From Sphingobium sp. CCH11-B1 (lineage in GTDB: Bacteria > Pseudomonadota > Alphaproteobacteria > Sphingomonadales > Sphingomonadaceae), in the NCBI RefSeq assembly GCF_001556865.1, contig NZ_LSJY01000133.1:1-61039 (forward strand): a DNA stretch of 61,039 nucleotides. The letters run 5' to 3'. Positions 2,119 through 60,662 of this stretch are shown here, piece after piece. The notes under the pieces were generated by a model, which was not told the DNA's origin, did no database searches, and saw only the letters and a program-made list of their open reading frames with translations. Numbering within the stretch: position 1 is the first letter of the stretch; each line of letters opens with the position of its first letter. The position numbers were made by a program, and so were the translations under genes.

Positions 2119-2134
2119 CCCGCCCATAGATAGG
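2119..2134. promoter_or_regulatory. Putative operator, dyad copy E (CCCGCC-CATA-GATAGG)
   Basis: The right half GATAGG is exact and the left half CCCGCC keeps the outer CC and the inner C of CCTATC. It lies in the divergent gap between the membrane-protein operon (start 2057) and the SnoaL/phosphotransferase operon (start 2205), with the exact half on the strand of the rightward operon. The call rests on recurrence of the motif at the same half-site spacing elsewhere in the window. Confidence 0.5.
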
Positions 2135-2204
2135 GTTCCTGACAGCGATCCCACCTGCACAAGGGCAATTCACGGCCATGGGCCTGGAAGCATCGGAGAG
2201 GGTG

Positions 2205-2597
2205 ATGAGCGATATCGAGGCGAACAAGGCGGTGGCCCGCCGCTATATGCGGGCGGTGGAGGAGGGCGATGTCGACACGATCGAGGCCCTTCAGCATCCC
2301 GACTGCCAGTGGTGGATATTGGGCCATGGCGACATGAGCCGGGCCGACTTCATCGCCAGCGTGAAGGGCGGATTGCTGAGCGCGGAGAAGCGCACGGCCG
2401 AAGTAATCGCAATCACCGCCGAAGGGGATCGGGTGGCGGTGGAAGTCCGGGGCGAGATGGTCTTTCCGGATCGGGTCTATCGCAACGACTATCATAATCT
2501 GCTGATCATCCGGGATGGGCAGATCGTATCCGGCAAGGAATATATGGATACCCGCGCCGTGGCCGAGGCCTTTTCGGCGGGGGAGGGCGCGCAGTGA
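2205..2597 (+). CDS. SnoaL-like NTF2-fold protein
   Basis: A 130-residue ketosteroid-isomerase-related protein: N-terminal helix 'NKAVARRYMRAVEEGDVDTIEALQHPDCQWWI' (about 5-38) and C-terminal strands ending 'IRDGQIVSGKEYMDTRAVAEAF', the classic 'DGKIxxxxxYxDT' ending of the SnoaL family. A GGAGAGG ribosome site 3 bases upstream selects the ATG at 2205 over an in-frame one at 2178. The stop overlaps the GTG start of the next gene (GTGA), so the two are translationally coupled. It probably acts as isomerase, dehydratase or cyclase on a pathway intermediate; the reaction is not determinable. Confidence 0.82.
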   Translation: MSDIEANKAVARRYMRAVEEGDVDTIEALQHPDCQWWILGHGDMSRADFIASVKGGLLSAEKRTAEVIAITAEGDRVAVEVRGEMVFPDRVYRNDYHNLLIIRDGQIVSGKEYMDTRAVAEAFSAGEGAQ

Positions 2598-3967
2598 CGA
2601 ATGCCGCGCCGCTCAACAATTATGATGATGCCGCAATCGGCCGGATCACCGCCTTTGTCGAGCAACTGACCGGCGGCAAGGTCGTCGGGCTGGAACGCCT
2701 CGTCCGCTGGCGCCCGTCCTGGTTCGTCGACATAGAAAGGGAAGGGACGGTCCGCCGCCTGCACCTGCGCGGCGACCGGGGCGGCGACGTATCGATCTTC
2801 CCCGACCTCAAGCGCGAGGCGGACGTTATCGCCGTGCTGCACGGTCAGGGGCTGCCGGTGCCGGATATTTGCGGCTACCTCTCCGATCCGCCCTGCATCG
2901 TGATGGAGGCGATCGAAGGGACGCGCGATTTCTCGGCGTTCGATGCCGCGACGAAAAGCGCCATCGGCCGCGTCTATATGGAGGCAGTCGCCGCGATGCA
3001 TCGGTTACCGGTCGAACCCTTCATGGCCGTCGGCGTGCATCGGCCCGAGGGCGCGGAGGCGATCGCGCTGGTCGGCCTCGACGCCTATATGGCGCATTAT
3101 CGGCGGACGAAGAGCCGACCCGAGCCGTTGCTGGAATTTGTCATCGGCTGGCTGCGCCGCAATGTACCGCGGCACCGCGATCGCGCCAGCTTCATCCAGT
3201 TCGATTCGGGCCAATATCTGGTCGATCAGGGAGCGATGACCAAGCTCTACGATTTCGAATTTTCGATGATCGGCGATCCGCTGGTCGACATCGCCACCAT
3301 GGGGATGCGCAACAGCTATGAGCCGCTGGGTGCGCCGCTGCCGGAACTGGTCCGCTATTATGAGGAAGCGACGGGCGAGCCGGTCGATCATGACGCGGTG
3401 GTGTTCCATGTCCTGCAATTCTCGCTGCTCGGCACGATGCAGTTCACCGGGACGGTCGGCGAGCCATGCCCCGGCGATCCGCATTCGGTCTATCTCATGT
3501 TCGATCTTGCGCTGCGCCGCTCCATCTTGCTGGCGCTGTCGCATCTGACCGGCGATGCGCTGCCCGAACTGCCGCCGCTGGAACAGCGCACGGGCGACAA
3601 TGCGCCGCTTCTGGCCAAGCTGGTCGATACGCTCGGGGCGTTGCCGGTGACGGGGGAGGCGGCGGAGACGCACAAGGCGCAGGTCGCCGAACTGATCGAA
3701 TGGGTACAGCGCGCCGACGATCATGGGGCGGACATCGTGGCGCGCAACATCGCCGATGTGTCCGCGCTTCTCGGCCGCCGCTTCGACCGCTGGGCCGATG
3801 CCGCCGAGGCGCTGGAAGCGTATATACTCGAGGCGGGACCGGACGAAGACGCCGCGCTTATCGCTCTGCTCGCGACCATCGAGGGGCGGCGGCTGCAACT
3901 GTTCGGACCAACCGCGCTGGGCGAGGCGGCGCGCCATGTCGTCCTGCCGGCGACGCGCTCCGACTGA
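2594..3967 (+). CDS. APH-type phosphotransferase family protein, divergent catalytic loop
   Basis: A 457-residue protein with the aminoglycoside-phosphotransferase/choline-kinase fold. The lysine-bearing N-lobe is around 'RRLHLRGDRGGDVSIFPDLKREADV' (54-78) and the metal-binding 'LYDFEFSMIGDPLVDIA' is at 218-234. The catalytic loop, usually HGD-x4-N, reads 'QFDSGQYLVD' (202-211): the Asp is kept, but His-Gly and Asn are changed. A helical C-terminal tail of about 190 residues follows, longer than in the three paralogs here. It starts at a GTG overlapping the upstream stop. Family members phosphorylate small hydroxylated molecules; the substrate here is unknown and activity is uncertain. Confidence 0.78.
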   Translation: MTNAAPLNNYDDAAIGRITAFVEQLTGGKVVGLERLVRWRPSWFVDIEREGTVRRLHLRGDRGGDVSIFPDLKREADVIAVLHGQGLPVPDICGYLSDPPCIVMEAIEGTRDFSAFDAATKSAIGRVYMEAVAAMHRLPVEPFMAVGVHRPEGAEAIALVGLDAYMAHYRRTKSRPEPLLEFVIGWLRRNVPRHRDRASFIQFDSGQYLVDQGAMTKLYDFEFSMIGDPLVDIATMGMRNSYEPLGAPLPELVRYYEEATGEPVDHDAVVFHVLQFSLLGTMQFTGTVGEPCPGDPHSVYLMFDLALRRSILLALSHLTGDALPELPPLEQRTGDNAPLLAKLVDTLGALPVTGEAAETHKAQVAELIEWVQRADDHGADIVARNIADVSALLGRRFDRWADAAEALEAYILEAGPDEDAALIALLATIEGRRLQLFGPTALGEAARHVVLPATRSD

Positions 3968-3981
3968 AGGGCGGTCGCGCC

Positions 3982-4010
3982 TTTGCCATTGGACAGGTCA
4001 GTCCCTGTCC
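3982..4010. promoter_or_regulatory. Putative operator region: degenerate dyad copy O plus inverted repeat GGACAGG/CCTGTCC
   Basis: The segment 3982-3997 ends GGACAGG and fits the right half of the window-wide dyad with one change (GACAGG for GATAGG); the left half is poor. It overlaps a perfect 7-bp inverted repeat, GGACAGG (3991-3997) and CCTGTCC (4004-4010) with a 6-base spacer. Both sit in the 80-base gap before the SDR gene at 4048. A small hairpin in the message is an alternative reading. Confidence 0.35.
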
Positions 4011-4047
4011 CTCATGGCGACGTCAATACTGAGGAAAGGAGCAGGAC

Positions 4048-5711: not shown

Positions 5712-6344
5712 TCAGGTGATCGGGGGATGGTCGACAATGGCGCGCATCCGGCAATAGGCCGGACGCGCCGTCATCCGCCCGACATAGGCCGCGATGTTCT
5801 TATGCCCTTCCACGTCGACGGACATGAACAATCGCGTGGTGGTGAATGGAAAGGTCATCATGATGTCGGCCGCCGTGAACCGGTCGCCCGCCATATAGGG
5901 GGCATGCGTCAGCCGGTCGTCGACAAGTTTCAGCAGGCGCGCCGAATGAGCCCGACCTGCGACGCGGGAGGGATGATCCTGCGCGATGCCTGCCCGTTCT
6001 GCCATGATCTCCATCACCAGCGCGGGCATCAGGGAGGATTCGGTGAAATGGAACCAGAAAAGATAGTCAGCATAGTCGGAGTCGCCGGGATTGGCGCGGA
6101 GCGCACCGTTCCCCTGCGTCGTGGCGAGATAGTCCATGACCGCCCCGCTTTCGGCGATGCGTTGTCCGTCGGCCTCGATCACTGGCGAAGAACCCAGCGG
6201 ATGCAAAGCCTTGTAGGCCGGTTCCGCCGCGAGCATTTCCAGCCGCGCAAAGAAGCGAATGTCATAGGGACACTCCACTTCCTCCATCAACCAGACCGCA
6301 CGTTCAGAGCGGGACCGGTCGAGTTGAAAGATGGTGACGCTCAT
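5712..6344 (-). CDS. Glutathione S-transferase family protein
   Basis: A 210-residue GST. The N-terminal thioredoxin-like domain includes the likely activating Ser region 'RSRSERAVWLMEE' (10-22), the cis-proline loop 'GSSPVIEADG' (Pro54) and the glutathione-binding 'AESGAVMDYL' (64-73). The C-terminal all-helical domain has the N-capping motif 'FTAADIMMTF'. GSTs in sphingomonad catabolic clusters conjugate or remove glutathione, isomerise ring-cleavage products or break ether bonds. It is convergent with the EthD-like gene (5-base gap) and divergent from the SDR at 6498; the divergent gap carries dyad copy A. Confidence 0.88.
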   Translation of the reverse strand: MSVTIFQLDRSRSERAVWLMEEVECPYDIRFFARLEMLAAEPAYKALHPLGSSPVIEADGQRIAESGAVMDYLATTQGNGALRANPGDSDYADYLFWFHFTESSLMPALVMEIMAERAGIAQDHPSRVAGRAHSARLLKLVDDRLTHAPYMAGDRFTAADIMMTFPFTTTRLFMSVDVEGHKNIAAYVGRMTARPAYCRMRAIVDHPPIT

Positions 6345-6400: not shown

Positions 6401-6416
6401 CCTATCTTTGTCTAGG
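6401..6416. promoter_or_regulatory. Putative operator, dyad copy A (CCTATC-TTTG-TCTAGG)
   Basis: The left half CCTATC is exact and the right half TCTAGG keeps TAGG. The copy is centred between the divergent GST (start 6344) and SDR (start 6498) genes, 57 and 82 bases from their start codons. It has the same half-site spacing as the perfect copy at 60647-60662. Confidence 0.55.
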
Positions 6417-6497: not shown

Positions 6498-7316
6498 ATG
6501 CCCATGACGGATTTATCGGGACGGGTCGCTATCGTCACCGGATCGGGGGCCAATATCGGGGAGGCCTGCGCACGGGCCCTGGCAAGGGCCGGCGCGACGG
6601 TGATCCTGGCGGATATTGCGGCTGAACGGGCGCAAGCCGTCGCCCAGTCTATTCGGGCCTCGGGCGGGCAGGCACATGGGATGGCCCTCGATCTCGCACA
6701 GGAGGACAGCATCACGGCGCTGGTCGTAGATGTGATGCGGCAGCATCAGCGCATCGACATCCTCCACAACAATGCCGCCGACACGCGGCTGGAGCAGATG
6801 GCGGTCGATGGCTCGCTTCTCGATCTCGACGCCGCGACCTGGGATCGCGCCTTTCATGTCAATGCGCGGGGCACGATGCTGATGATCAAGGCGGTCGCGC
6901 CGCACATGATTGCGGGCGGCGGCGGCTCCATCATCAACACCTCGACCGGGGTGGCGCTGACCGGCGACATCAACAATCCGTCCTATTCCGCGTCCAAGGC
7001 AGCCGTGAACGCGCTGACCCGCAATGCGGCGGTGCAGTTCGGCCGGTTTAACATCCGGGTCAACGCGGTCGCGCCGGGCCTCGTGCTCTCCCCGCTGGCC
7101 CGGGAGATGATGACCCCTGAGCAGATCGCCATGATCCAGCGGCATGTCCTGCTCCCGCGCGAGAGCGTGCCGGAAGATATTGCCGGTGCGGTGCTGTTCC
7201 TGGCGTCGGATGGCGCGGCCTTCATCACCGGGCAGGTGATCGGCGTGGATGGCGGGATCGTTCATCATACGCCCTATGTCGCCGATATGCTGGAAGGCAT
7301 GAGCCGGGCGCACTGA
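6498..7316 (+). CDS. Classical short-chain dehydrogenase/reductase
   Basis: A 272-residue SDR with 'VTGSGANIG' (13-21), 'NNAAD' (91-95), Ser149, Tyr163 and Lys167 ('YSASK') and the C-terminal 'ITGQVIGVDGG'. It is closely similar to the next SDR (7772) in the segment 'RIDILHNNAA...W..AF.VNARG.ML', suggesting tandem duplication. AGGAGAG precedes two possible ATGs (6498 and 6504); the second leaves a 9-base spacer and may be the true start. It probably oxidises a ring or side-chain hydroxyl. It heads an SDR-VOC-SDR operon divergent from the GST gene. Confidence 0.9.
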   Translation: MPMTDLSGRVAIVTGSGANIGEACARALARAGATVILADIAAERAQAVAQSIRASGGQAHGMALDLAQEDSITALVVDVMRQHQRIDILHNNAADTRLEQMAVDGSLLDLDAATWDRAFHVNARGTMLMIKAVAPHMIAGGGGSIINTSTGVALTGDINNPSYSASKAAVNALTRNAAVQFGRFNIRVNAVAPGLVLSPLAREMMTPEQIAMIQRHVLLPRESVPEDIAGAVLFLASDGAAFITGQVIGVDGGIVHHTPYVADMLEGMSRAH

Positions 7317-8612: not shown

Positions 8613-9719
8613 TCAAAACAGCGCGTCGACAAGCTTTGCGGTTTCGAGATCCTCATAGGCGGTGGTCAGCCGGAGATGGTTCATGACGTTGATCTCCCAG
8701 CCATAATTGACGACGGGGGTCGTCAGCCAGCCGATATAGACGCCCCATATCAGGGTTCGCCGATATTCAGCCCAGGCATCGTCGAGGGCAGGAGGGCGTG
8801 CGACGCCTTCCTGCCCCAGGCGATCCAGATAATAGCCCAGAAGATCGCGCTCATGCGCCCGCCGGTCCGCAATGGAAAGGCCGGTGGTCACGATATAGTT
8901 GACGTCGTGCATCGCGTAGCCGCGCACCATGAGCTGCCAGTCGAGCAGGCCCGCCGTTCCGTCGGGCAGGCGGTAGCTGTTGCCGAGATGGGTGTCGCCA
9001 TGCAGCAGCGTCTGAGGCAGGGTCGATTGATGTCGTTGCACCCCCTGCACCCCTGCAAGCAGCCTGTCGGGCGTCGTGCGCAACCGCTGCACCATTTCCC
9101 GTTTGAAATTTTCCGTCTCGACCTCATGCGCGATATAGGCGGGCGCGAGTTCATTCATCATCGTTGCGACCGCGCCTTCGACATGGGTTTCGACCCAGGC
9201 CAGATCCGCGCCGAAGCGGGGTGATTCCCAGAAGCGCGCGTGCAGCCGGGCCAGCTGATCCAGCAAGGCCCGCACATCGTCCGGCCCGGTCCGCATGGTG
9301 GTATTGGGGAAGGTCGCGCCCCGCACGCCCAGATCTTCGAGCAACAGCCCGAAATGCGTGGTGGAGGCATTGAAGTCGCCACCGAAACAGCGCGGCGCCT
9401 CGATCGCGAGTTCCGGCCGAATGCCCCGGTAGAAGGCCACTTCATTGGCGTAGAAGGGGGCCATGATCTCATCGACCGCCCGGGTCAGCTTGAGCACCAG
9501 GCGGTTGGGCAGGTCAGGGGCCGTGTCATCGCTATAATCGACCTCGATTGCCACGCGCCCCGCCGTCGACACCATCTGCTCGCCATAGGTTTTGGCGTCG
9601 ATGATGCGCATGTCGGTGACGGTTGCGCCCGTGCCCGCCGTGGCCAGTAGCTGATTGATATAATCGACGGTGATTCCGTCCGTGGATGTAGGATGTTTCA
9701 AGGCCATAAGCATACTCAT
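8613..9719 (-). CDS. APH-type phosphotransferase family protein
   Basis: A 368-residue kinase-fold protein with an intact catalytic loop 'LLHGDTHLGNSY' (238-249: Asp242, Asn247) and metal motif 'LLDWQ' (Asp260). The N-lobe contains 'NRLVLKLTR' (72-80), where Lys77 is the likely ATP-binding lysine. The pattern 'LLEDL' and 'LLDWQLMVRGYAMHDVNYIV' is that of the ecdysteroid-kinase/acyl-CoA-dehydrogenase-10-like branch of APH proteins. It would phosphorylate a hydroxyl of a small, probably hydrophobic molecule. It is divergent from the Rieske oxygenase gene, and the shared gap has dyad copy B. It is one of four such genes within 15 kb. Confidence 0.85.
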   Translation of the reverse strand: MSMLMALKHPTSTDGITVDYINQLLATAGTGATVTDMRIIDAKTYGEQMVSTAGRVAIEVDYSDDTAPDLPNRLVLKLTRAVDEIMAPFYANEVAFYRGIRPELAIEAPRCFGGDFNASTTHFGLLLEDLGVRGATFPNTTMRTGPDDVRALLDQLARLHARFWESPRFGADLAWVETHVEGAVATMMNELAPAYIAHEVETENFKREMVQRLRTTPDRLLAGVQGVQRHQSTLPQTLLHGDTHLGNSYRLPDGTAGLLDWQLMVRGYAMHDVNYIVTTGLSIADRRAHERDLLGYYLDRLGQEGVARPPALDDAWAEYRRTLIWGVYIGWLTTPVVNYGWEINVMNHLRLTTAYEDLETAKLVDALF

Positions 9720-9764
9720 CGGAGCAGAGGGCTATCAGCTTGCCGGGACTATGACAGTGATGAC

Positions 9765-9780
9765 CCTATCCAATTGCAGG
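9765..9780. promoter_or_regulatory. Putative operator, dyad copy B (CCTATC-CAAT-TGCAGG)
   Basis: An exact CCTATC left half with AGG kept on the right. It lies in the divergent gap between the phosphotransferase (start 9719) and the Rieske oxygenase (start 9847). A possible -35 hexamer TTGAAC (9785-9790) begins four bases after the dyad, the position expected for a LuxR-type activator site; the matching -10 is not clear. Confidence 0.55.
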
Positions 9781-9846
9781 TTCCTTGAACCGTGATGTGG
9801 CCAGTCTGATTGAAACGGAGCCTGCGGGCTTTTACAGGAGAGAGCT

Positions 9847-11061
9847 ATGCGTGAAGCTGCGTTGGAATTGCTCAACCGGACGATGGAGGAGCAGTTGAAG
9901 CGATCCGAGCATCCCAGCGATTTTCCGGCCCTTCCTCCGATTCCAGCCGGCCGCTACACCGACCCGCGTTTCGAAGCGCTGGAAAAAGAAAGGCTTTGGA
10001 ATCGCACCTGGCTGCTGGCCGGCATTGCATCCGACCTGCCGGCACCCGGTTCCTACCGCCTGTTCCAGCATCTGGACCGCTCGGTCATTCTCTCCCACGG
10101 CAAGGACGGTCGAATCCGGGCCTTTCACAATGCCTGCCGGCACCGCGGTTCCCCGCTTCTGCTTGAGCCACAGGGGCGCGCCATGCGCTTCATCTGCCCC
10201 TATCACGCCTGGGGCTACGACCTTGAAGGCACCCTCAAATCGGTTCCCAGCCAGCATGATTTCGCTTGTCTCGACAAGGCGGAAAACGGTCTGATCGAAG
10301 TGAAGTGCGATACCTATCGCGGCTTCATCTTCATCAATTTCGATGATGACGCTGAGCCGTTGCAGAATTTCCTGGGAGAATTCGTGGCGCTGACGGAAGG
10401 ATATCCGCTGGAATGCATGGTGGTGAAGGATTATTTCTTCGTCGAAATGGCGTGCAACTGGAAGATTGCCTATCATAATTTCCTTGAGATCTATCATGTC
10501 AACACCGTCCATCCCACGACATTAGCGCCGCATCTGGATTCGCGCAGTTTCGTGATCGCGCTTTATGAAGGCGGTCATATGCGGTTCGGAACGCGGAAGA
10601 AGGGCGGGGAGTCGCTGTTCAAGACCCCGCCGGTCAAACCGGACGACATCGCGCCGGTTTTCCTCGAAAATACGGTTGCGCTGCCGACCTTTCCCAACAC
10701 ATTTTTCTCGCTCGATCCGGTGGGATTCAACCTGCAATGCTTCTGGCCGATGGGGTCCGACCGGTCTGTCATGGAAGTGCGCCAGATGGGATGGGCGACC
10801 GACAGCGAAGAGGACAAGCTCTACTGGCAGGGGATGCGCGCGGCGACCGAACATATTCTGTCCGAGGATCTGTGCCTGTTCGAAAATATCCAGCAATCGC
10901 TGCGCAACGGGACGATCCCTTCGATCTGGGCCGGCTATCAGGAGCGCGCGCTTTACTGGTTCGAGGAAGAAATCGATCGGCGCATCGGGCCGGACCATGT
11001 ACCGACGGACTTGCGCGTTCAGCCGCGCATCGCGTCCTTCATGGCGCCGCGCAGCGGCTGA
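9847..11061 (+). CDS. Rieske non-heme iron oxygenase, alpha subunit
   Basis: A 404-residue ring-hydroxylating oxygenase subunit. The Rieske [2Fe-2S] ligands are Cys97-x-His99 ('CRHRG') and Cys117-xx-His120 ('CPYHAW'). The mononuclear iron site is in 'NFLEIYHVNTVHP' (His217, His222; Glu214 where many enzymes have the bridging Asp). The enzyme inserts oxygen into an aromatic ring or steroid-like substrate using electrons from a ferredoxin. No beta subunit is adjacent, so it may be an alpha-only (KshA/carbazole-type) oxygenase. GGAGAG lies 5 bases before ATG 9847. It is flanked on both sides by phosphotransferase genes. Confidence 0.92.
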   Translation: MREAALELLNRTMEEQLKRSEHPSDFPALPPIPAGRYTDPRFEALEKERLWNRTWLLAGIASDLPAPGSYRLFQHLDRSVILSHGKDGRIRAFHNACRHRGSPLLLEPQGRAMRFICPYHAWGYDLEGTLKSVPSQHDFACLDKAENGLIEVKCDTYRGFIFINFDDDAEPLQNFLGEFVALTEGYPLECMVVKDYFFVEMACNWKIAYHNFLEIYHVNTVHPTTLAPHLDSRSFVIALYEGGHMRFGTRKKGGESLFKTPPVKPDDIAPVFLENTVALPTFPNTFFSLDPVGFNLQCFWPMGSDRSVMEVRQMGWATDSEEDKLYWQGMRAATEHILSEDLCLFENIQQSLRNGTIPSIWAGYQERALYWFEEEIDRRIGPDHVPTDLRVQPRIASFMAPRSG

Positions 11062-11090
11062 CCGCGCGCCGAAACGCCGCCATTAAATCG

Positions 11091-11125
11091 ATGCCCCTGC
11101 CGCGGTTCGAGCGCGGCAGGGGCAT
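11091..11125. terminator. Bidirectional terminator-like hairpin
   Basis: A perfect 14-bp inverted repeat (11091-11104 with 11112-11125) and a 7-base loop lie between the convergent Rieske gene (end 11061) and phosphotransferase gene (end 11131). There is no long U-tract on either side, though the leftward transcript runs into TTTAAT. Position between two gene ends supports a terminator role. Confidence 0.7.
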
Positions 11126-11130
11126 GATCG

Positions 11131-12279
11131 TCATTCGCCCAGCAATTTCCAGCTGTCCAGGTCCTCGCCCGCAGCGAAGAACCGCTCGTTCATCGGCAGG
11201 CCGTTCTGGCCCCAATAGTCCATGTTCGCCACCCAGGCCTGGATGCCGTACATCACCCAGCGCGGCACCTGTTCCGTCCAGATGGTGTCGAGATCGATGA
11301 CATTGGTCGCGCCTTCCCGGATCAGGCAGTCGCGGTAATGGGCGATCAGGTCGCGATGATTTTGGCGACGCTCCTCGATCGTCAGCGATCCGACGGTGAA
11401 ATAGGTGAGGTCGCGCCATGGGCGCCCGCGCCGGCCCAGTTGCCAGTCGACCCACATGCGCTCGCCATTGGGCAGGATATAGGTGTTGCCCTGGTGGCAG
11501 TCGCCCAGGATGATGCAATAGGGCGCGTCGAAGGCGCGCTCGAAGGCGACCAGCCGGTCATAGGCGCGCTCGACCCTGCGCGCGTCGTCCAGATAATGTC
11601 TGGGCGCGATGGCGCGGAAATTGGGGTCTTTCAGATTCTCTTCGATCCAGTGCCACATGATGCGGACCTGGTCATAATCGACCGGCACCGCCATGGATGT
11701 CGGCAGCCAGGGCGCCGCTTCGGGCGTGATCAACGGGCTTTCCCACAGGCCCGCATGCAGCTTTGCCAGGTCCGCCAGCGCGGTCGCGACCCTGTCGACG
11801 CCGGCATGCTGGGTCGAGTGGCCGAACGTGCCGCCTCGATCGATGAGGTCTTCCAGCACGATGACGCCCCGCGCCGAGCCGTCATCGTCCCAGTCGGCAT
11901 AATAGCATGCGGCTGTATTGGCTGTGAGTTTGTCCGTCAGGAAATGATAGAAGCGCGCTTCAAGCGCATGGATGTCGACATTGTCGAACATGCCCGACCA
12001 GTTCGATTTGATGCACAGATTGCGCGGCAAGCCGCCGGCCCGCCCGGCATCATTCCAGTCCACCGCGACGCGCAACTTGGTGGTGTGGCTGTCGAACAAC
12101 TGCACGACCTCCATCGATTGCGCGACGACGCCCGGATATTTGTTGGCCAACAATGATCCCAGCCATGCGGCGTCCGGCGTGAAGCGGCCGTGGGGCAGGG
12201 ACGCGGTGCGGGCGGGATAGGGACGGGGGACAAGATGCCGATCGATGACGGCAGGGGGGGCGATGGCAGGCTCGCTCAT
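11131..12279 (-). CDS. APH-type phosphotransferase family protein, His-less catalytic loop
   Basis: A 382-residue kinase-fold protein. The catalytic loop reads 'ILGDCHQGNTY' (257-267): Asp260 and Asn265 are conserved, but the His of HGD is Leu258. The metal motif is 'VDWQ' (Asp278). The C-terminal segment 'RRGRPWRDLTYFTVGSLTIEERR' is nearly the same as in the paralog at 13578, so these two are recent duplicates. The predicted role is phosphorylation of a small hydroxylated pathway compound. It is the last gene of a leftward series that begins near 17113, or has its own promoter in the 140-base gap upstream, where a weak dyad copy (12389-12404) is found. Confidence 0.83.
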   Translation of the reverse strand: MSEPAIAPPAVIDRHLVPRPYPARTASLPHGRFTPDAAWLGSLLANKYPGVVAQSMEVVQLFDSHTTKLRVAVDWNDAGRAGGLPRNLCIKSNWSGMFDNVDIHALEARFYHFLTDKLTANTAACYYADWDDDGSARGVIVLEDLIDRGGTFGHSTQHAGVDRVATALADLAKLHAGLWESPLITPEAAPWLPTSMAVPVDYDQVRIMWHWIEENLKDPNFRAIAPRHYLDDARRVERAYDRLVAFERAFDAPYCIILGDCHQGNTYILPNGERMWVDWQLGRRGRPWRDLTYFTVGSLTIEERRQNHRDLIAHYRDCLIREGATNVIDLDTIWTEQVPRWVMYGIQAWVANMDYWGQNGLPMNERFFAAGEDLDSWKLLGE

Positions 12280-12388
12280 GCATTATCCTCTCTCTCTCTT
12301 TTAAGCCGCGCCGCCGCTCTGCGTCTGTGCAGTCATCCGGCACGATCCCGATGCGGAGGCAATTTTGATCGACGGAAGACGAGTCGAG

Positions 12389-12404
12389 CCTGCCGGGTGG
12401 TAGG
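12389..12404. promoter_or_regulatory. Weak candidate operator, dyad copy K (CCTGCC-GGGT-GGTAGG)
   Basis: Four of six bases match the left half and five of six match the right half of CCTATC-N4-GATAGG. It lies in the 140-base gap between the epoxide hydrolase gene and the phosphotransferase gene at 12279. Orientation is opposite to most other copies, so this call is tentative. Confidence 0.25.
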
Positions 12405-12419
12405 AGATTGCGGCAGGCG

Positions 12420-13562
12420 CTATCTTCGCATCGCGCCAAAACAGGCCCGCAATTCCGCGACAAACAGCGCCGGCTGCTCGAAGGCGGCGAAATGGCCGCC
12501 GACATCCAGCTCATTCCAGTGAATGAGACGCAGGTAGCTGCGTTCGGCCCAGCGCCGTGATGGACGGAAAATCTCCTGCGCGAAGATGCTGACGCCGACC
12601 GGCAGGTGCAATTGACGCGCCTGAAACGCATTGGCGCTTTCCCAATAGAGCCGCGCGGACGACGCGCCGCTGTTGGTGAGCCAGTAGATGCTGATCACGT
12701 CCAGCATTTCGTCCCGTGTCAGCGCATTCTCCGGCACGCCCTGATTGTCGGTCCACGCCTGGAACTTCTCGTAGATCCAGGCGGCTTGCGCCACGGGCGA
12801 GTCCGCCAGCCCATAGCCGATCGTCTGCGGTCGGGTGCCCTGCAGCTTGGCGTAGCCGGAATCATGCTCCTGATAATATTGCATCCGTTCGACCGTTCTG
12901 GCCTCGGCCGGTGTCAGGTCGGCAAAGTCGTTTTCCTCCGGGAATACCAGCGGCATGTTGAGATGGACGCCGATACATTCGGGCGGCGCGGCCATGGCGA
13001 TGGCGGTTGTGATCGCCGCGCCCCAGTCGCCGCCCTGCGCGGCGAAGCGGTCATAACCGAGGCGGCGCATGAGCTGGATCCAGCTTTGCGCGATCCTCTC
13101 GACGCCCCAGCCTGCGGCCGTCGGCTTGTCCGAAAAGCCGTAGCCTGGCAGCGAGGGGATGACGACATGGAAGGCTGGCGCGTCCGGCGCGCCATGGGCG
13201 GCGGGATCGGTTAGCGGTCCGAGCACCTTCAGAAACTCCAGCACCGATCCCGGCCAGCCATGGGTCAGGATCAGCGGCAGCGCGTCCGGCCGGGGGCTGC
13301 GTACATGGATGAAGTGAATGGAAAGGTCATCGATCGAGGTCGTGAACTGTGGCAGGGCGTTGAGCGTACTTTCACACCGCCGCCAGTCATAGCCGTCTGC
13401 CCAATAGGCGCACAGATCACGCAGCGCCGCCAGCGGCACGCCCTGACTCCAGTCGCTGACCGTCTCCGCCTCGGGCCAGCGCGTACGGCGCAACCTGAGG
13501 CGCAGATCGTCCAGTGCCGCCTCGGGAACATCGGCGCGGAAGGCCGTGACGGCGTCGGTCAT
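12420..13562 (-). CDS. Epoxide hydrolase family alpha/beta hydrolase
   Basis: A 380-residue enzyme of the microsomal-type epoxide hydrolase family. The N-terminal EHN segment 'FRADVPEAALDDLRLRLRRTRWPE' (8-31) is followed by the alpha/beta core with oxyanion motif 'HGWPGS' (101-106), nucleophile Asp179 in 'GGDWGA', and catalytic His357 in 'GGHFAAFEQP'. It opens an epoxide to a trans-diol, or hydrolyses a related strained substrate. It could process an epoxide made by the P450 or an oxygenase here. The start at 13562 is followed by the classic EHN beginning. Fifteen bases separate it from the upstream phosphotransferase gene, suggesting cotranscription. Confidence 0.9.
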   Translation of the reverse strand: MTDAVTAFRADVPEAALDDLRLRLRRTRWPEAETVSDWSQGVPLAALRDLCAYWADGYDWRRCESTLNALPQFTTSIDDLSIHFIHVRSPRPDALPLILTHGWPGSVLEFLKVLGPLTDPAAHGAPDAPAFHVVIPSLPGYGFSDKPTAAGWGVERIAQSWIQLMRRLGYDRFAAQGGDWGAAITTAIAMAAPPECIGVHLNMPLVFPEENDFADLTPAEARTVERMQYYQEHDSGYAKLQGTRPQTIGYGLADSPVAQAAWIYEKFQAWTDNQGVPENALTRDEMLDVISIYWLTNSGASSARLYWESANAFQARQLHLPVGVSIFAQEIFRPSRRWAERSYLRLIHWNELDVGGHFAAFEQPALFVAELRACFGAMRR

Positions 13563-13577
13563 CCGATCATCCTTACG

Positions 13578-14672
13578 TCAAAATTGCACGCCGAGCGCGG
13601 CGACCGTGCCCAAATCCTCGCCCGCCACGAAGATGCGCTCGACGATGTGCATGCCCTTCTGGCCCCATTCGTCCATGTTCGCGATCCACGCCTGCATCGC
13701 ATAGGGCGGCCAGCGGCGATAATATTCCCATAGCGTGTCGTCGTCCGGGACGCCGAGTGCCCCCGTTTCGATCAGGCAGTTCCGATAGTGGCGCAGCAAT
13801 TCCCGGTCATGCGCGCGCCGCTCCTCGATCGTGAGCGCCCCCAGCACGAAATAGGTGAAGTCGCGGATCGGCCGACCCTTGCGGACCAGTTGCCAGTCGA
13901 GCCACACCCGCTCGCCATCGGGGCGGACATAGCTGTTGCCCTGGTGGCTGTCGCCATGGACTAGGCACCACGGCCCCTGTTCCTTGGTCTGCGCGAAATC
14001 GATCAGCGCGTTGTAGACGCCATGCAGGCGCGAGAGATCGCCCTTGATCCAGCCCGGCAGGAAGGCCTGATAGTCCGGCTTGGAATGGTTCTGCTCGGCA
14101 AAGCCGTACATCATGGTCAGTTGCTGCGTGTCCACCGGCGTCGCCATGGAGACGGGAAGCCAGTCGGCCGCGTGTAGGACCGGGCTGTCCCAGAAGGCGC
14201 CATGGATGCGGGCAAGGCTGGCGACCGCGCGGGCCGCTTCCTCCACGCCCATATGGTCGGTGCTGATGCCGAAATGGCCGCCCTCGACGGTGAGATCCTC
14301 CATCACGACCAGGCCCTGACCGCTGTCGGGACGTGGATCCCATGCCTCGAAATAGGAGCGCGGGGCAGGAAATGCGACGTGGCGGCGGAAATCCTCGTAG
14401 AAGCGCGCTTCGAGGCGGCAAATGCCCTGGCTGTCGAACTGCGCCCAATTGGCCTTAAGGCAGACATTGTCGGGGATGCCCGCCGCCTTGCCGACATCGT
14501 TGAGGGTCAGCTTCACCTGATATTTGGTGGTGTGGCTGTTGCGGAGGAAAACCTGCTCCATCCCCTCGACCACGATGCCGGGATAGCGCGGTTGCATGAT
14601 CTGCGTCAGCCACTGCGCCGTCACATGGTCCAAATGCGCGGGGATGCCGACCGGATTGGGTATGTTCGACAT
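13578..14672 (-). CDS. APH-type phosphotransferase family protein
   Basis: A 364-residue kinase-fold protein with an intact catalytic loop 'LVHGDSHQGNSY' (237-248: Asp241, Asn246) and metal motif 'WLDWQ' (Asp259). The segment 'VRKGRPIRDFTYFVLGALTIEERR' marks it as a close paralog of 11131. Only 3 bases separate its start from the stop of the FAD oxidoreductase, so they are surely cotranscribed. In that setting it probably phosphorylates an alcohol of the pathway, which could activate it for elimination or trap it inside the cell. Confidence 0.87.
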   Translation of the reverse strand: MSNIPNPVGIPAHLDHVTAQWLTQIMQPRYPGIVVEGMEQVFLRNSHTTKYQVKLTLNDVGKAAGIPDNVCLKANWAQFDSQGICRLEARFYEDFRRHVAFPAPRSYFEAWDPRPDSGQGLVVMEDLTVEGGHFGISTDHMGVEEAARAVASLARIHGAFWDSPVLHAADWLPVSMATPVDTQQLTMMYGFAEQNHSKPDYQAFLPGWIKGDLSRLHGVYNALIDFAQTKEQGPWCLVHGDSHQGNSYVRPDGERVWLDWQLVRKGRPIRDFTYFVLGALTIEERRAHDRELLRHYRNCLIETGALGVPDDDTLWEYYRRWPPYAMQAWIANMDEWGQKGMHIVERIFVAGEDLGTVAALGVQF

Positions 14673-17113: not shown

Positions 17114-17281
17114 CGGTGCAAGTCCTCTCTTGGAGCCGGCCTTATCGGCGCTGTCGCGATTGCGCGGACCCTAGAAGAGGAGCGTCGGCTTACAGCCTAT
17201 CGGGAGGCAGGTCGCGTCGAAACGAAAATGCAACGGTCCGCAAGACGGTGGGACGGGTAGGACCGCCCGCACGTGCTTGCC

Positions 17282-20184: not shown

Positions 20185-20257
20185 GCAGCGACCCTATAGC
20201 GGTTCGCTGTCCCGACACCCTATCCTTGGAGAGGAACGGACCGTTTCACCGTGCTGC

Positions 20258-20269
20258 ATTCTATAGAAT
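20258..20269. promoter_or_regulatory. 12-bp perfect palindrome ATTCTATAGAAT, putative GntR operator (copy 1)
   Basis: A perfect 12-base palindrome lies 21 bases before the ATG at 20291 of the GntR regulator. The same 12 bases recur at 38374-38385 before another operon. The size, symmetry and AT centre are typical of FCD-type GntR operators, so autoregulation is likely. Confidence 0.7.
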
Positions 20270-21012: not shown

Positions 21013-22176
21013 ATGGATTTCGAACTGCCCGAAGAATATCGCTCTTTCCGCGACATTGTGCGCCGCTGGGTGAACAGCGAAGTGCCCAAGGACTGGGCGC
21101 GCGCGCTGGAAAAGGACGAGCATCATTATCCCTTTGCGCTGTGGGACAAGTTCACCGAAGCGGGTTTCCACGGCGTCGGCATAGCGGAGGATTATGACGG
21201 GCAGGGCGGCGACGTCGTCATGCAGATGCTGCTGGCGCGGGAACTGGCCCGGTCGCTGGGCGGACTGGCATGGATATGGGGCATCACCAGCTTTGCAGGG
21301 TCCAAATCCATCGGGCTTTACGGGTCGGCCGAACAAAAAGCGAAATATCTCCCGCTGATCGCGACGGGCCAGCTGAAGGCTGCGATCGCCTTCACCGAGC
21401 CGGGCGGCGGCACGGACCTCCTCGGCGCGATGGCCACCACGGCTGACCGGGTCGATGGCGGGTGGAGGCTCAATGGCGAGAAGATCTGGTCCTCCTCTGC
21501 CCATGTCGCCGATTATCTGCTGGTGATCGCGCGAAGCGACAGGGGCGTCGAGAAGAAGCATCAGGGCCTGACCCTCTTCTGGGTGCCGACGAAGACGCCG
21601 GGCGTGACGATCACGCCACTGGCCAAGCTGGGTATGCGGTCGATGGGCAGCTGCTCCGTTCATTTCGAGAATGCGCTCGTCGCGGACGAGCATGTTCTGG
21701 GTGAACCCGACAAGGCCTGGTACATGCTGCTGCCCACGCTCAACAACGAGCGCATCATGGTAGGCGCCTTCTGCCTGGGCGTCATCGATGGCGTGCTGGA
21801 AGACGCGCTCGACTATATGAAACAGCGCAAGGCCTTTGGCGGGATCATCGGCCGCTTCCAGAGCCTGCAACATTATGTCGCCGACATCGCGACCATGCAG
21901 AAGACGACCGAACTGATGCTGCATTATTGCGCGCACAAGCAGAGCCGGGGCGAGAATGTCGGCGTCGAGGCCAATATGCTCAAGCTCATGGCTTCCGAAA
22001 ACGCCAATGCCGCGGCGGACATGGGCATCCAGATATTGGGTGGCATGGGCTATTCGGCGGAAACCGACATGCAGCGTTACTGGCGCGACAGCCGCCTGTG
22101 GCGCATCGGTCCCATCACCAACGAAATGGTGCGCAATGGCATCGCGGAAAGCCTGGGGCTGCCGCGATCCTTCTGA
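21013..22176 (+). CDS. Acyl-CoA dehydrogenase
   Basis: A 387-residue FAD enzyme with all three domains: N-terminal helices (1-110), beta domain with the substrate/FAD segments 'IAFTEPGGGTDLLGAM' (about 128-143) and 'GWRLNGEKIWSSSAHVADYLLVIAR' (156-180), and C-terminal helices with 'QILGGMGYSAETDMQRYWRDSRLWRIGPITNEMVR'. The 'TNE' Glu aligns with the catalytic base of many family members. It has exactly the same length as, and strong similarity to, the enzyme at 43233. Its reaction would be alpha,beta-desaturation of an acyl-CoA formed from the degraded ring or side chain. AAAGGA precedes the ATG. Confidence 0.92.
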   Translation: MDFELPEEYRSFRDIVRRWVNSEVPKDWARALEKDEHHYPFALWDKFTEAGFHGVGIAEDYDGQGGDVVMQMLLARELARSLGGLAWIWGITSFAGSKSIGLYGSAEQKAKYLPLIATGQLKAAIAFTEPGGGTDLLGAMATTADRVDGGWRLNGEKIWSSSAHVADYLLVIARSDRGVEKKHQGLTLFWVPTKTPGVTITPLAKLGMRSMGSCSVHFENALVADEHVLGEPDKAWYMLLPTLNNERIMVGAFCLGVIDGVLEDALDYMKQRKAFGGIIGRFQSLQHYVADIATMQKTTELMLHYCAHKQSRGENVGVEANMLKLMASENANAAADMGIQILGGMGYSAETDMQRYWRDSRLWRIGPITNEMVRNGIAESLGLPRSF

Positions 22177-22184
22177 AGGACAGG
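22169..22184. promoter_or_regulatory. Candidate operator, dyad copy X (CCTTCT-GAAG-GACAGG)
   Basis: The right half GACAGG differs from GATAGG at one base and the outer CCT is kept on the left. The copy spans the end of the acyl-CoA dehydrogenase gene and lies 73 bases before the P450 start, in the orientation seen upstream of other rightward genes. Confidence 0.35.
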
Positions 22185-26962: not shown

Positions 26963-27595
26963 TCATCCTTTCTCATGTTCGCTATGGTGTCCGGCGATCT
27001 GCAATGCCCAGTCGCACAATCGATCGGGGGCGCTGTTCCAGATGGCCAGCCAATCCGGGGTGGCGGGAATGATGAGCGTGCTCAGTTGCAGGCGGACCAT
27101 GGTGTCGCAGAAGGCGTCCCGGTTGATCCGCTGGCCGATCAGGCTGTCGAAATGGTCGAAGACGGGCGCTAGCGCACGCTGGACGGCGGCCTTGTGGCGG
27201 CCGAAATGACTGCGCAGGAAATTGAGATGGAAGGCAGGTTCGACCTCGAAAATGCCTTCGGGCGAACGCTCGATCGTAAAGCGGCCGTAAAAGCGCATCA
27301 CCGCGCGAAAGCGCTCGATCGGTTCGGCGATGCCTTCGCCCGATTCCACAATGCCTTTTTCAAAGCTGCTGCAAACATATTCGCTAAAGGCCGCCAGCAC
27401 TTCTTCCTTGGACGCGAAATAACGGTAGAGCGTGCCGCGCGAAACGCCGCTGCTTTCGCTGATGTCGCTCATCGACAGGCGCCGCGCGCCGATGGAGTTG
27501 ATCGCGCGCAACGTGCCGTCCATGATCTTCTGGACGCTGCCGGACTGATCCGTCGCGACGATTTCACTCCAGTCGGTGTGCGGCATCAATTTCAT
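26963..27595 (-). CDS. TetR/AcrR family transcriptional regulator
   Basis: A 210-residue TetR protein. The helix-turn-helix is 'LSMSDISESSGVSRGTLYRYFASKEEVLAAF' (40-70), a textbook match. Its ATG overlaps the stop of the SDR (ATGA), and 4 bases separate it from the HsaA-like gene, so it is embedded in the operon that starts at 31559. The inverted repeat at 31599-31629, before that operon, is its best candidate site and would give feedback control by a pathway metabolite. Confidence 0.9.
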   Translation of the reverse strand: MKLMPHTDWSEIVATDQSGSVQKIMDGTLRAINSIGARRLSMSDISESSGVSRGTLYRYFASKEEVLAAFSEYVCSSFEKGIVESGEGIAEPIERFRAVMRFYGRFTIERSPEGIFEVEPAFHLNFLRSHFGRHKAAVQRALAPVFDHFDSLIGQRINRDAFCDTMVRLQLSTLIIPATPDWLAIWNSAPDRLCDWALQIAGHHSEHEKG

Positions 27596-31658: not shown

Positions 31659-31865
31659 ATGAGCCAGAAACTGAAAGTGGTGATCGATAAGGCGGCATGC
31701 TGCGGCTATGGCGTGTGCGCCGAAATTTGCCCCGAAGTGTACAAGCTTGACGCCAATGGCATCGTATATGTTGACGACGAAATCGTTCCCGAAGGACTGG
31801 AGGAGCAGGCCCGGGAAGGCGCCGAGGCCTGTCCGCAGTCCGCCCTTGCTGTCGAAGCCGCCTGA
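31659..31865 (+). CDS. [3Fe-4S] ferredoxin (P450/Rieske electron donor type)
   Basis: A 68-residue acidic ferredoxin. The cluster ligands are Cys14-x5-Cys20-x3-Cys24-Pro and Cys58-Pro, the three-iron arrangement of actinobacterial and sphingomonad P450 ferredoxins; an extra Cys15 lies beside the first ligand. It should carry one electron from a reductase (28401 is the candidate) to an oxygenase: the P450 at 22257 or one of the Rieske enzymes, whose operon is divergent from it. AAGGAGAGG before ATG 31659 decides the start. Confidence 0.92.
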   Translation: MSQKLKVVIDKAACCGYGVCAEICPEVYKLDANGIVYVDDEIVPEGLEEQAREGAEACPQSALAVEAA

Positions 31866-31902: not shown

Positions 31903-31918
31903 CCTGTCACAGGATAGG
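31903..31918. promoter_or_regulatory. Putative operator, dyad copy F (CCTGTC-ACAG-GATAGG)
   Basis: An almost perfect copy: the right half is exact and the left half has one change. It lies in the gap between the ferredoxin gene (end 31865) and the OYE gene, 60 bases before ATG 31979 and on its strand. It suggests that the OYE gene has its own promoter under the common regulator. Confidence 0.6.
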
Positions 31919-35396: not shown

Positions 35397-35412
35397 CCCG
35401 CCAAAGGATAGG
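35397..35412. promoter_or_regulatory. Putative operator, dyad copy G (CCCGCC-AAAG-GATAGG)
   Basis: The right half GATAGG is exact; the left half keeps three positions, as in copy E. It is 53 bases before the SnoaL start at 35343. Here the exact half is on the strand opposite to the gene, unlike most copies. Confidence 0.45.
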
Positions 35413-37896: not shown

Positions 37897-38352
37897 TCAG
37901 GCGGGCAATTGGGCCGCCAGCCAGTCCGGCACATTCATCCGATAGCATTTCTGTTCGTAGAGGCGGCTGATCTTCCAGCCCTGCGCGGTGCGGACGAAGT
38001 CGTGATGATACCAAAGGCCGAAGACCAAAGTATCGGTCGTTTCGCCATTGCTGACCGTCATCGGATTGTAGCAGGCGGTTTTGGTCTGCGCCCGGTCGCC
38101 GGCGATTTGATATTGGGTGGTGGACACGGCATGTTGAAAGGCGAGAATTGGCGTCAGGCTTGCCGAGAGAAATGCCTTGATGTCCGCAAGGCTTCCGACG
38201 ACGCCCACCATTTCGGAATAGTCGATCACAGCATCGTCGGTAAAATAGCGGTCCAGCGCGTCCCAGTCGCGCGTATCCACTGCGTAGCAATAGCCTACGA
38301 TCAGGTCCTGAACTTCGAACCGGTCCGACATCTCCTGCAGGGTCAGTGTCAT
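37897..38352 (-). CDS. SnoaL-like NTF2-fold protein
   Basis: A 151-residue SnoaL_4-type protein: 'DRFEVQDLIVGYCYAVDTRDWDALDRYFTDDAVIDYSEMVG' (10-50) and 'DTLVFGLWYHHDFVRTAQGWKISRLYEQKCYRMNVPDWL' near the C-terminus. It shares the 'Y..AVDTRDW..L...F..DA' helix with 34900 and 58208. It is likely a dehydratase or isomerase of a pathway intermediate. It lies 39 bases before the PQQ dehydrogenase gene on the same strand, and its promoter region holds the second copy of the 12-bp palindrome. Confidence 0.85.
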   Translation of the reverse strand: MTLTLQEMSDRFEVQDLIVGYCYAVDTRDWDALDRYFTDDAVIDYSEMVGVVGSLADIKAFLSASLTPILAFQHAVSTTQYQIAGDRAQTKTACYNPMTVSNGETTDTLVFGLWYHHDFVRTAQGWKISRLYEQKCYRMNVPDWLAAQLPA

Positions 38353-38415: not shown

Positions 38416-38431
38416 CCTTCCATTAGGTAGG
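38416..38431. promoter_or_regulatory. Candidate operator, dyad copy I (CCTTCC-ATTA-GGTAGG)
   Basis: Four of six bases match the left half and five of six the right half. It lies in the divergent gap 38353-38513, 82 bases before the SnoaL-like gene at 38514 and in the orientation of other copies upstream of rightward genes. Confidence 0.4.
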
Positions 38432-44449: not shown

Positions 44450-44465
44450 CCTATCCAACTATAGG
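44450..44465. promoter_or_regulatory. Putative operator, dyad copy C (CCTATC-CAAC-TATAGG)
   Basis: The left half is exact and the right half has one mismatch (TATAGG). It lies in the 62-base gap before the acyl-CoA dehydrogenase gene and overlaps the stop codon of the upstream FMN reductase gene. It would let the segment 44396-40198 be transcribed separately. Confidence 0.6.
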
Positions 44466-51805: not shown

Positions 51806-51821
51806 CCTTTCGTTGGATAGG
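51806..51821. promoter_or_regulatory. Putative operator, dyad copy H (CCTTTC-GTTG-GATAGG)
   Basis: The right half is exact and the left half has one mismatch (CCTTTC). It lies in the divergent gap between the acyl-CoA ligase (start 51735) and the thiolase (start 51888), 66 bases before the latter and on its strand. With copies B and C it shares the longer string TTGGATAGG. Confidence 0.58.
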
Positions 51822-51887
51822 TGCAGCTTTGCCTTCCTGGTCCAAGAGCAAGGGCAGAGATTTTGTATCACTGTGCGGGAATTCACG

Positions 51888-58203: not shown

Positions 58204-58207
58204 TCGG

Positions 58208-58714: not shown

Positions 58715-58758
58715 GGCGAATATCTTTCTTTACCGGCCGCGAGGGTGGGGGGCTTATT

Positions 58759-59535: not shown

Positions 59536-60533
59536 ATCGTCACCACGACTTTGCCGAACTTGTGCTGGTCGCGCAGATGCAGAAGCGCCTCTTTGGCCTG
59601 GGCAAGCGGATAGGTCGCCTCGATCACCGGCTTGATTGCATGTTGCTCGGCAAAAGCGAGCATTTCCTTGAAGTCCTGCGGATCGCCGACCTGGCTGCCG
59701 ACGATGCTGGCGCTCTTGAGGAAGATGTCGGTGGCGTTGAACTTGATCTCGTTGCCGGCGGTAGACCCGTAGATGACGATCCGCGCGCCCGGATTGATGG
59801 CGCGGACATAATTGGCGAAGCTGGGCGATGGCGCGCCGTCCAGCACCACGTCGATGCCGCCGGTAAGTTTGCCGACCTGCTTGCGCCAGTCGGGATCGGT
59901 GTACAGCAGACCGCCCTTGGCCCCCATTGCCACGGCACGATCGATCACGTCCTGGTTTTCACCGGTGACATAGACATTGGCGCCCTTGGCCACGGCAAAG
60001 GCCAGGCCGAACGTGGCCACGCCGCCGCCTACGCCGCTGATGAGCAGCGTCTCTCCCGCTTCCAGCCGTCCCTTGAACATAAGCGCGCGCCACGAGGTCA
60101 GCGCCGTCAGCGGCATGGCCCCGGCTTCCTCGAAACTCATGAAGGCCGGCTTGGGCGCCAGATTGTCGACCGGCACGCAGATATATTCGGCGATCGTGCC
60201 GGCGAAGGGCATACCGAGCAGGCCGAAATCGGCGGCTGGCGCGTGGCGGTTCGACCCCCAGTTGCGTGCAGGATAGAGCACAACCTCATCGCCCTCGCGG
60301 ACGCAGGTGACGCCCTCGCCGATCATGTCGACGACGCCCGCACCATCACAGCCCAGCGTGATCGGCACCGTCATGCCGGGATATTGCCCGTGGGTGATGA
60401 ACAGTTCACGATGGTTTATGGATGCGGCCCGCAGCGCAACACGCACCTCTCCCGGACCGGGCACTGGCGTGTCGACTTCCGCCACCACGACGGATTCAGG
60501 GCCGTCGATCCGTTCGAGATAAAGGGCCTTCAT
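59532..60533 (-). CDS. Zinc-binding alcohol dehydrogenase family (MDR) oxidoreductase
   Basis: A 333-residue MDR protein: GroES-like part 'MKALYLERIDGPESVVVAEVDTPVPGPGEVRVALRAASINHRELFITHGQYPG' (1-53), 'LGCDGAGVVDMIGEGVTCVREGDEVVLYPARNWG' and Rossmann site 'LLISGVGGGVATFGLAFAVAKGANVYVTG'. The usual catalytic Cys of zinc ADHs is replaced in 'SINHRELF', so it is likely a zinc-free quinone/enoyl reductase. AGGAAAGG before ATG 60533 selects this start over a TTG at 60539. Its promoter region is shared with the LAL regulator and holds the perfect dyad. Confidence 0.88.
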   Translation of the reverse strand: MKALYLERIDGPESVVVAEVDTPVPGPGEVRVALRAASINHRELFITHGQYPGMTVPITLGCDGAGVVDMIGEGVTCVREGDEVVLYPARNWGSNRHAPAADFGLLGMPFAGTIAEYICVPVDNLAPKPAFMSFEEAGAMPLTALTSWRALMFKGRLEAGETLLISGVGGGVATFGLAFAVAKGANVYVTGENQDVIDRAVAMGAKGGLLYTDPDWRKQVGKLTGGIDVVLDGAPSPSFANYVRAINPGARIVIYGSTAGNEIKFNATDIFLKSASIVGSQVGDPQDFKEMLAFAEQHAIKPVIEATYPLAQAKEALLHLRDQHKFGKVVVTM

Positions 60534-60646
60534 GGTCAACCTTTCCTAATATCCTGCTCGCGCCGCGGTCTGTATGGCAACGCTGGCTGCATAACGACCT
60601 CGGCTTCCTAGGTGGAAAGCTGGACATTTTTCCATCTCATTGGGAA

Positions 60647-60662
60647 CCTATCTGCCGATAGG
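60647..60662. promoter_or_regulatory. Putative operator, perfect dyad copy D (CCTATC-TGCC-GATAGG)
   Basis: The only copy with two exact 6-base arms. It lies in the 215-base gap between the divergent MDR gene (start 60533) and the LAL regulator gene (start 60749), 86 bases before the latter. On the minus strand it continues GATAGGTTCCC, like copy C. Its location next to a LuxR-family gene suggests autoregulation. Confidence 0.65.

Follow-up and report, generated by a model that had tools for sequence, protein, structure and literature searches.

A conserved inverted repeat is very probably the operator of a MalT-like LAL activator in a steroid-like catabolic cluster of Sphingobium

What could tie together the many short operons of a catabolic gene cluster? 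The question is raised by a contig of 61,039 nucleotides from Sphingobium sp. CCH11-B1 (NZ_LSJY01000133.1, positions 1 to 61,039; this whole stretch is called the window below). Catabolic genes are densely packed along its 61 kb, in which our own gene-calling script, used throughout in place of a published caller, finds 66 genes. About 94% of it is coding, and 27 intergenic segments (3.7 kb) make up 5.4%. An earlier note had proposed that a recurrent 16-base dyad, CCTATC-N4-GATAGG, marks a regulon under an LAL (MalT-like) regulator, the start of whose gene (60750..61039, + strand) is cut by the window end. We find that the dyad is a genuine element, conserved and more frequent than chance allows. 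Comparison across genomes makes it very probable that its extended form, ACCTATC-N4-GATAGGT, is the operator of this LAL protein, acting as an autoregulated activator of a steroid-like catabolic regulon.

With up to three mismatches the dyad occurs at 36 places in the window, compared with a mean of 19.5 and a maximum of 32 in 100 dinucleotide shuffles. The excess is concentrated between genes: 5, 7 and 13 of the 27 intergenic segments match at one, two and three mismatches or fewer (0.007, 0.13 and 1.37 expected). An unbiased scan of palindromes in the window's intergenic DNA (4,096 half-sites at 13 spacings) ranked CCTATC-N4-GATAGG first at all three thresholds, with a score of 27.6 at one mismatch or fewer against 11.9 for the best of 40 shuffled sets. 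Over the whole window, coding DNA included, the dyad was not the top palindrome and others scored above it, because codon-biased palindromes swamp it there. A weight matrix trained on 169 of 195 sites, namely those from other genomes, gave ten matches scoring at least 13, all of them intergenic (shuffles: mean 0.29, largest 2), after a 68-residue open reading frame at 31659 had been dropped from the gene list by judgement. Seven further matches scored 9.5-13, three of them coding. Shuffles, intergenic palindrome scan and matrix thus bear out the proposal of one dyad of fixed spacing that is mostly intergenic and recurs above chance. The ten supported sites lie 43-87 bases from the nearer start codon, where the earlier note gave 45-115. 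The longer string TTGGATAGG, said to be shared by the sites at 9765, 44450 and 51806, is indeed present at all three.

The same element recurs around orthologues of the LAL gene. In 12 related neighbourhoods, 42 intergenic sites with at most one mismatch have a gap of 4 and each other gap has none or one; coding DNA, ten times more abundant, holds four. The dyad leads the intergenic palindromes in 7 of the 12 neighbourhoods at one mismatch or fewer and in 7 of 12 (one tie) at two or fewer, which is the conservation that the earlier note had asked for. A one-letter variant of the same spacing leads in neighbourhood G238b at both thresholds and in G238a and G157 at the looser one, and the neighbourhood of G349 (5 kb) is uninformative in this ranking. 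Intergenic sites with at most two mismatches are found in all 12. The fourth base of the half-site may be A, G or T, and the element as a whole has the form of a LuxR/GerE-type operator, an inverted repeat of about 16-20 bp with fixed spacing.

We examined the LAL protein in its full-length copy from G001, the nearest genome (3.7 Mb; 87% of sampled 31-mers in common with the window). This copy has 893 residues comprising an NTPase, a TPR_MalT region and a C-terminal GerE helix-turn-helix. The GerE/LuxR domain matches PF00196 at residues 832-885 of 893 (E 1e-13), and the large size, the AAA_22 and TPR_MalT matches and the similarity to the MalT structure 8bob (E 3e-46) likewise place the protein in the LAL class. 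The consensus of 12 LAL orthologues carries the Walker A motif AGSGKTT. The aligned orthologues show hardly any change in the recognition helix, LTEGTVKWYMQQIYDKLGVRRR (L124 and L078 were read in the wrong frame). A domain scan of the LAL protein found no acyl-homoserine-lactone or receiver domain. MalT itself was rejected as an equivalogue: despite a full-length profile match, the score of 245 bits lies below the NCBIfam MalT cut-off of 537.

Presence of the dyad follows that of the LAL gene. Among 397 genomes of the family, LAL orthologues occupy 12 places in 11 genomes (G001 included) at 56-100% identity, and all other matches reach at most 33%; the search scored two candidates per genome, so that weaker extra copies could escape it, as did L104 (53%), which a later search found in the organism of G238. 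A site lies within 350 nt 5' of 12 of these 12 orthologues and of none of 8 relatives at 33% identity or less. In named genomes, which include Sphingobium soli (100% identity), S. xenophagum (98%), Novosphingobium, Croceicoccus, Sphingomonas, Niveispirillum and others, the dyad stands within 350 nt upstream of 45 of 48 LAL orthologues, 35 times exactly and with varying central four bases, compared with 31 of 2,400 letter shuffles; none of 12 relatives at 32% identity or less has it upstream. This count used 62 of 67 loci: the partial matches L103, L109, L115, L133 and L135 were omitted, the relative L127 was not counted because its upstream sequence is too short, and L114, a relative at 37% identity with a site of at most one mismatch at -223, was placed in neither group. 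Genome-wide, at least ten sites with at most one mismatch are present in 8 of 11 genomes with an LAL orthologue and in 10 of 386 without (counted by eye; P 5e-10). We take the latter ten as chance, since in the three inspected (G357, G115 and G295) the sites are scattered and none is exact. The difference between orthologues and distant relatives supports the reading of the dyad as the signal of the LAL regulon.

The genome richest in sites within the family sample is that of Sphingobium fontiphilum (G238), with 22 at one mismatch or fewer. It also has three LAL copies of 95%, 60% and 53% identity, on contigs C3, C4 and C5 (L071, L082 and L104), and its sites are spread over these three contigs save for two on C2 and C6.

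How the dyad is placed relative to the genes suggests what it does. Of 346 site rows, 48 have TTGC or TTGT at offset 9 from the dyad and were set apart from the other 298; similarity reduction left 20 LAL-type and 195 target flanks. Among the 195 gene-facing flanks, an A stands at offset 23 in 111 (57%); apart from a T at offset 0, which prolongs the dyad, no other downstream column stands out. At 87 non-divergent sites this A occurs on the gene side in 53 (61%) and on the far side in 11 (13%; P 3e-11). If the A is position -11, as we infer, the dyad is centred at -42.5, the position of a class II activator, and A-rich sequence begins at the predicted +1. The LAL promoters are built differently. 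A TTG stands at offset 9 in 38 of 48 orthologues, a count independent of the selection that makes the TTGC at offset 9 in the 20 LAL-type flanks circular, and those flanks have GATAA at offsets 32-36, 17 bp past that hexamer. These positions would centre the dyad at -52.5, and the A-rich stretch appears to be moved by the same 10 bases, which makes a difference of one helical turn between the two promoter types. In geometry, the likeness to LuxR-type boxes noted earlier also holds.

Together these features suggest the following mechanism. A dimer of the C-terminal GerE helix-turn-helix domain of LAL would bind the two half-sites. At catabolic promoters, where the dyad would sit at -42.5 beside a poor promoter, bound LAL would act as a class II activator that recruits RNA polymerase; between divergent genes it would sometimes do so towards both sides. 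At the LAL gene, the dyad would lie one turn further upstream, at -52.5, beside the promoter's own -35 (TTGC) and -10, which would permit basal LAL synthesis followed by self-tuning. An effector, probably an intermediate of the steroid-like substrate, would turn LAL on.

Several observations weigh against this account. Beyond the A at offset 23, the targets show hardly any conservation around the -10; this is expected of activator-dependent promoters, and it leaves the assignment of the A to -11 as one that we infer. Three LAL orthologues at 53-54% identity with the same recognition helix (L102, L104 and L111) have no site of two mismatches or fewer within 350 nt; L102 and L111 carry strong paired sites elsewhere in the locus, and L104 has none scoring 13 or more. 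Relatives at 31-32% identity keep much of the helix (TEGTVKWY) yet have no site, many of the orthologues are close kin and thus non-independent, and three LAL-bearing genomes (G050, G335 and G349) have just 6-8 sites at one mismatch or fewer. At two mismatches or fewer, other gaps hold 1-20 intergenic sites compared with 91 at gap 4, and an unrelated palindrome outranks the dyad in the neighbourhoods of G332 (both thresholds), G050 and G157 (one mismatch or fewer). Finally, 16 of 446 rows scoring at least 13 are coding in a scan of 59 sequences, made up of the 12 neighbourhoods and 47 of the 55 loci L070-L124, with some organisms present twice.

The co-occurrence pattern also raises a rival. 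The cluster encodes a TetR-family protein (26963-27595, - strand), and the dyad might be its operator, through which it would repress the operons. TetR proteins bind palindromes, and the half-site resembles that of the tet operator, which has a three-base spacer. Orthologues of this protein (E≤1e-50) are found in 10 of the 397 genomes, every one with LAL, and at E≤1e-30 the gene is present in 10 of the 11 LAL-bearing genomes, a near-perfect co-occurrence that counts against LAL as the owner of the dyad. We consider TetR a serious rival for this reason, since at the stricter threshold it occurs in no genome lacking LAL. However, no site scores 11 or more in any of ten TetR loci (2.9-3.6 kb each), where the gene lies inside an operon, whereas 45 of 48 LAL promoters carry a site. 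Genome G332 has LAL and sites with no TetR match at 1e-30. A three-base spacing yields one intergenic site at one mismatch or fewer and three at two or fewer, with no enrichment, and the dyad thus has neither the spacer of a tet-type operator nor a place near the tetR gene. The fixed upstream distance to a gene-side base fits an activator. Ownership by the TetR protein is therefore improbable in our judgement. Its gene sits between SDR and HsaA-like genes, as a second, co-inherited regulator.

Other regulators of the cluster, two GntR/FCD proteins and one AraC protein, are about half as credible as owners. Their genes are present, and the sites at 20219 and at G001 294640 precede a GntR and an AraC gene. 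At E≤1e-30, however, each of the two GntR genes is found in 5 of the 11 LAL-bearing genomes and the AraC gene in 6, and all 12 LAL neighbourhoods have sites. It is less plausible still that the dyad is no protein site and acts as an RNA hairpin, in a terminator or leader: a stem of six bases and a loop of four would suit, yet unpaired half-site combinations are as frequent as under independence (fourth pair 96 observed, 87 expected; the two-mismatch limit biases this mildly), so that the half-sites show no compensation, and the dyad lies upstream of the putative -10 and in divergent regions. That a short intergenic word recurs by chance, as the background-like sites at 3982 and 22169 and the higher-ranking palindromes of the whole-window scan might suggest, is contradicted for the ten supported sites by the enrichment, spacing and conservation tests and can be set aside with near certainty.

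Under the favoured reading of the dyad as the LAL operator, the extent of the regulon can be followed beyond the window in G001, which was scanned genome-wide by pattern and, with a matrix partly trained on G001 sites, over 183 kb of the contig plus seven places outside the cluster. Nine of its 16 places with one mismatch or fewer fall within C1:294640-421113, about 126 kb that include the window's counterpart (one of the nine, 421098, is coding), a density that favours the earlier proposal. The sole exact site in G001 is at the LAL promoter, the counterpart of 60647. In the 183 kb, 23 of 24 matrix matches of at least 11 are intergenic, although intergenic DNA is 8% of the stretch; the coding one is again 421098. 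All lie between 294640 and 421958, and the G001 regulon would therefore span about 127 kb. Nine of these intergenic matches are beyond the two-mismatch limit of the training set (306174, 319204, 320205, 326558, 356395, 385020, 392681, 416906 and 417932). Outside the cluster, C3:288220 alone of the seven places with at most one mismatch is intergenic, has an A at offset 23 and scores at least 12; of the others, one is coding, one is on a contig without a called gene and four fall below the matrix threshold. The earlier idea that the dyad defines a whole-pathway regulon is thus supported, with the amendment that the G001 regulon extends beyond what the window covers.

Within the window, Pfam and NCBIfam scans identify SDRs, Rieske oxygenases, a P450, acyl-CoA dehydrogenases, HsaA-like flavin monooxygenases, an extradiol-type dioxygenase, SnoaL proteins, an old yellow enzyme and several kinase-like proteins. 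Eight of the twelve sites listed in the earlier note are supported. The exact dyad at 60647..60662 (+; matrix 22.6) lies in the divergent region between a zinc-binding dehydrogenase gene (60533, -) and the LAL gene (60750, +). Here TTGC, the putative -35, follows the dyad by 9 nt, a -10-like GAATAT lies 17 bp past that hexamer, and the start is predicted near 60707. The strongest site, 51806..51821 (both directions; 22.9), separates a CoA ligase gene (51735, -) from a thiolase gene (51873, +). It has an A at the putative -11 on both sides and predicted starts near 51856 (+) and 51771 (-), and sites precede the best matches of the ligase and thiolase genes in 25 and 24 of the 59 sequences scanned. 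At 44450..44465 (-; 19.1) the dyad stands 5' of an acyl-CoA dehydrogenase gene (44402, -) and of those that follow it; here the -10 appears to be shifted by two bases, and a site precedes the best matches of the dehydrogenase gene in 18 of 59 sequences. The dyad at 31903..31918 (both; 18.0) is 343 nt from a Rieske oxygenase gene (31559, -) and 60 nt from the old-yellow-enzyme gene (31979, +). Divergent pairs also flank 6401..6416 (14.6; GST at 6344, -, and SDR at 6498, +), 38416..38431 (14.3; two SnoaL-like genes at 38352, -, and 38514, +), 9765..9780 (13.0; a kinase-like gene at 9713, -, and a Rieske oxygenase gene at 9847, +) and the weaker 2119..2134 (13.6; a gene adjoining a COX3-like gene at 2057, -, and a SnoaL/APH pair at 2178, +), all read in both directions. 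The site at 38416 has an A at the putative -11 on both sides and precedes the best matches of each SnoaL-like gene in 11 of 59 sequences.

Two supported sites were missing from that list. The dyad at 20219..20234 (both; 18.9), with an A at the putative -11 on both sides, precedes GntR, acyl-CoA dehydrogenase and P450 genes (20291, +) and, on the other side, a doubtful small open reading frame (20094, -), and the start towards the GntR gene is predicted near 20269 (+); that at 17196..17211 (both; 15.6) lies between an SDR gene (17113, -) and an HsaA-like flavin monooxygenase gene (17336, +). Three listed sites are marginal: 12389..12404 (-; 9.8, A at offset 23), 5' of an ecdysteroid-kinase-like gene (12279, -), and 35397..35412 (-; 9.8, no A at offset 23), 5' of a SnoaL-like gene (35343, -), are uncertain, and 22169..22184 (+; 10.3, no A at offset 23), which overlaps a gene end before a P450 gene (22257, +), is probably non-functional. 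The place at 3982 was rejected with a matrix score of 3.7. Four kinase-like genes (APH or ecdysteroid-kinase-like; window 2594-3967 and 8613-14672) share this one catabolic cluster.

Besides the window's genes, the G001 stretch encodes TonB receptors, a transporter, a 3-ketosteroid-dehydrogenase-like flavoprotein and F420 synthesis genes. Behind the dyad at 326558, C1:320231-326517 (L003:231-6517) encodes CofC, CofD, an FbiC-like CofG/H and a luciferase-like monooxygenase. Annotated plasmids (loci L204 and L205) have similar genes next to LAL: cofH, npdG, cofC and a TIGR03619 F420-dependent oxidoreductase in Novosphingobium resinovorum, and the same set with cofD and cofE in Croceicoccus marinus. 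FbiC is found in 11 of 11 LAL-bearing genomes and in 56 of 397 overall. In G001 the LAL gene is followed by a second dyad, ahead of the next gene, for beta-keto-acid cleavage (L003:10383-11312; gap G001 C1:331313-331395); a site stands 5' of this gene in 42 of 59 sequences, with TTG directly after the dyad in 7 of 10 rows. The N. resinovorum plasmid that carries LAL and part of the cluster is the 961-kb pSA2 (L204), which is typed conjugative, so the regulon may move between strains; a plasmid search gave, among the matches listed, three records with a place more than 50% identical to LAL.

The best reading of these sequences is of a steroid-like, F420-linked LAL regulon that would work like that of AlkS. 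We also think it somewhat more probable than its opposite that one conserved LAL with its own dyad code organises steroid-like catabolic islands of at least 100 kb, F420 synthesis and F420-dependent oxidoreductases included, in sphingomonads and some other alphaproteobacteria, by one rule: -42.5 at targets, and -52.5 with its own -35 at its own promoter. If so, the regulon of any such island could be read from sequence alone. A conserved operator with a likely regulator offers a direct means to delimit the pathway, predict missing enzymes (those of the F420 branch too) and build an inducible sensor, and the two-spacing rule would offer a clear and testable example of how a MalT-type protein activates transcription.

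Among known systems, LuxR-type boxes and the 7-2-7 sites of NarL are 16-bp inverted repeats with a class II centre near -42.5. The dyad shares the repeat form, 6-4-6 being equivalent to 7-2-7 over 16 bp, and has a predicted centre near -42.5, but differs in half-site sequence, and LAL differs in having no detected acyl-homoserine-lactone or receiver domain. For sphingomonad steroid catabolism, the portions consulted of three reports name TetR, AraC, Lrp/AsnC and LuxR-family regulators for particular other clusters (PMC12239570, PMC8700777, PMC12882949), and the Caenibius progesterone cluster encodes a LuxR-family protein (PMC12239570). A word search of the available text of PMC8044976 and PMC12175502 gave no mention of LuxR or of a regulator, and among the entries listed from an open-licence library none describes this LAL or the dyad motif. 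TpdR of Rhodococcus jostii TMP1 is likewise an LAL activator of a catabolic operon, as far as the consulted portion of its report goes, but the site proposed for it consists of a direct repeat of 15 nt (PMC6099782). MalT of Escherichia coli has the NTPase, MalT TPR and GerE domains in common with LAL, but is described in the same portion as binding two decanucleotides in direct repeat (PMC6099782), in contrast to the inverted repeat of the dyad. AlkS of Pseudomonas putida GPo1, a LuxR/MalT-type activator of alkane degradation, is the closest known system in its predicted working: according to the part of the source consulted, a MalT-like activator, an inverted repeat before the catabolic promoter and before its own, and autoregulation (PMC8784404) are features of AlkS, and all are predicted for LAL. 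The two systems differ in that AlkS has a 20-bp repeat before PalkB and PalkS2 (PMC8784404), whereas the dyad assigned to LAL measures 16 bp and marks more than 20 intergenic regions, and the LAL promoter itself appears to use another spacing.

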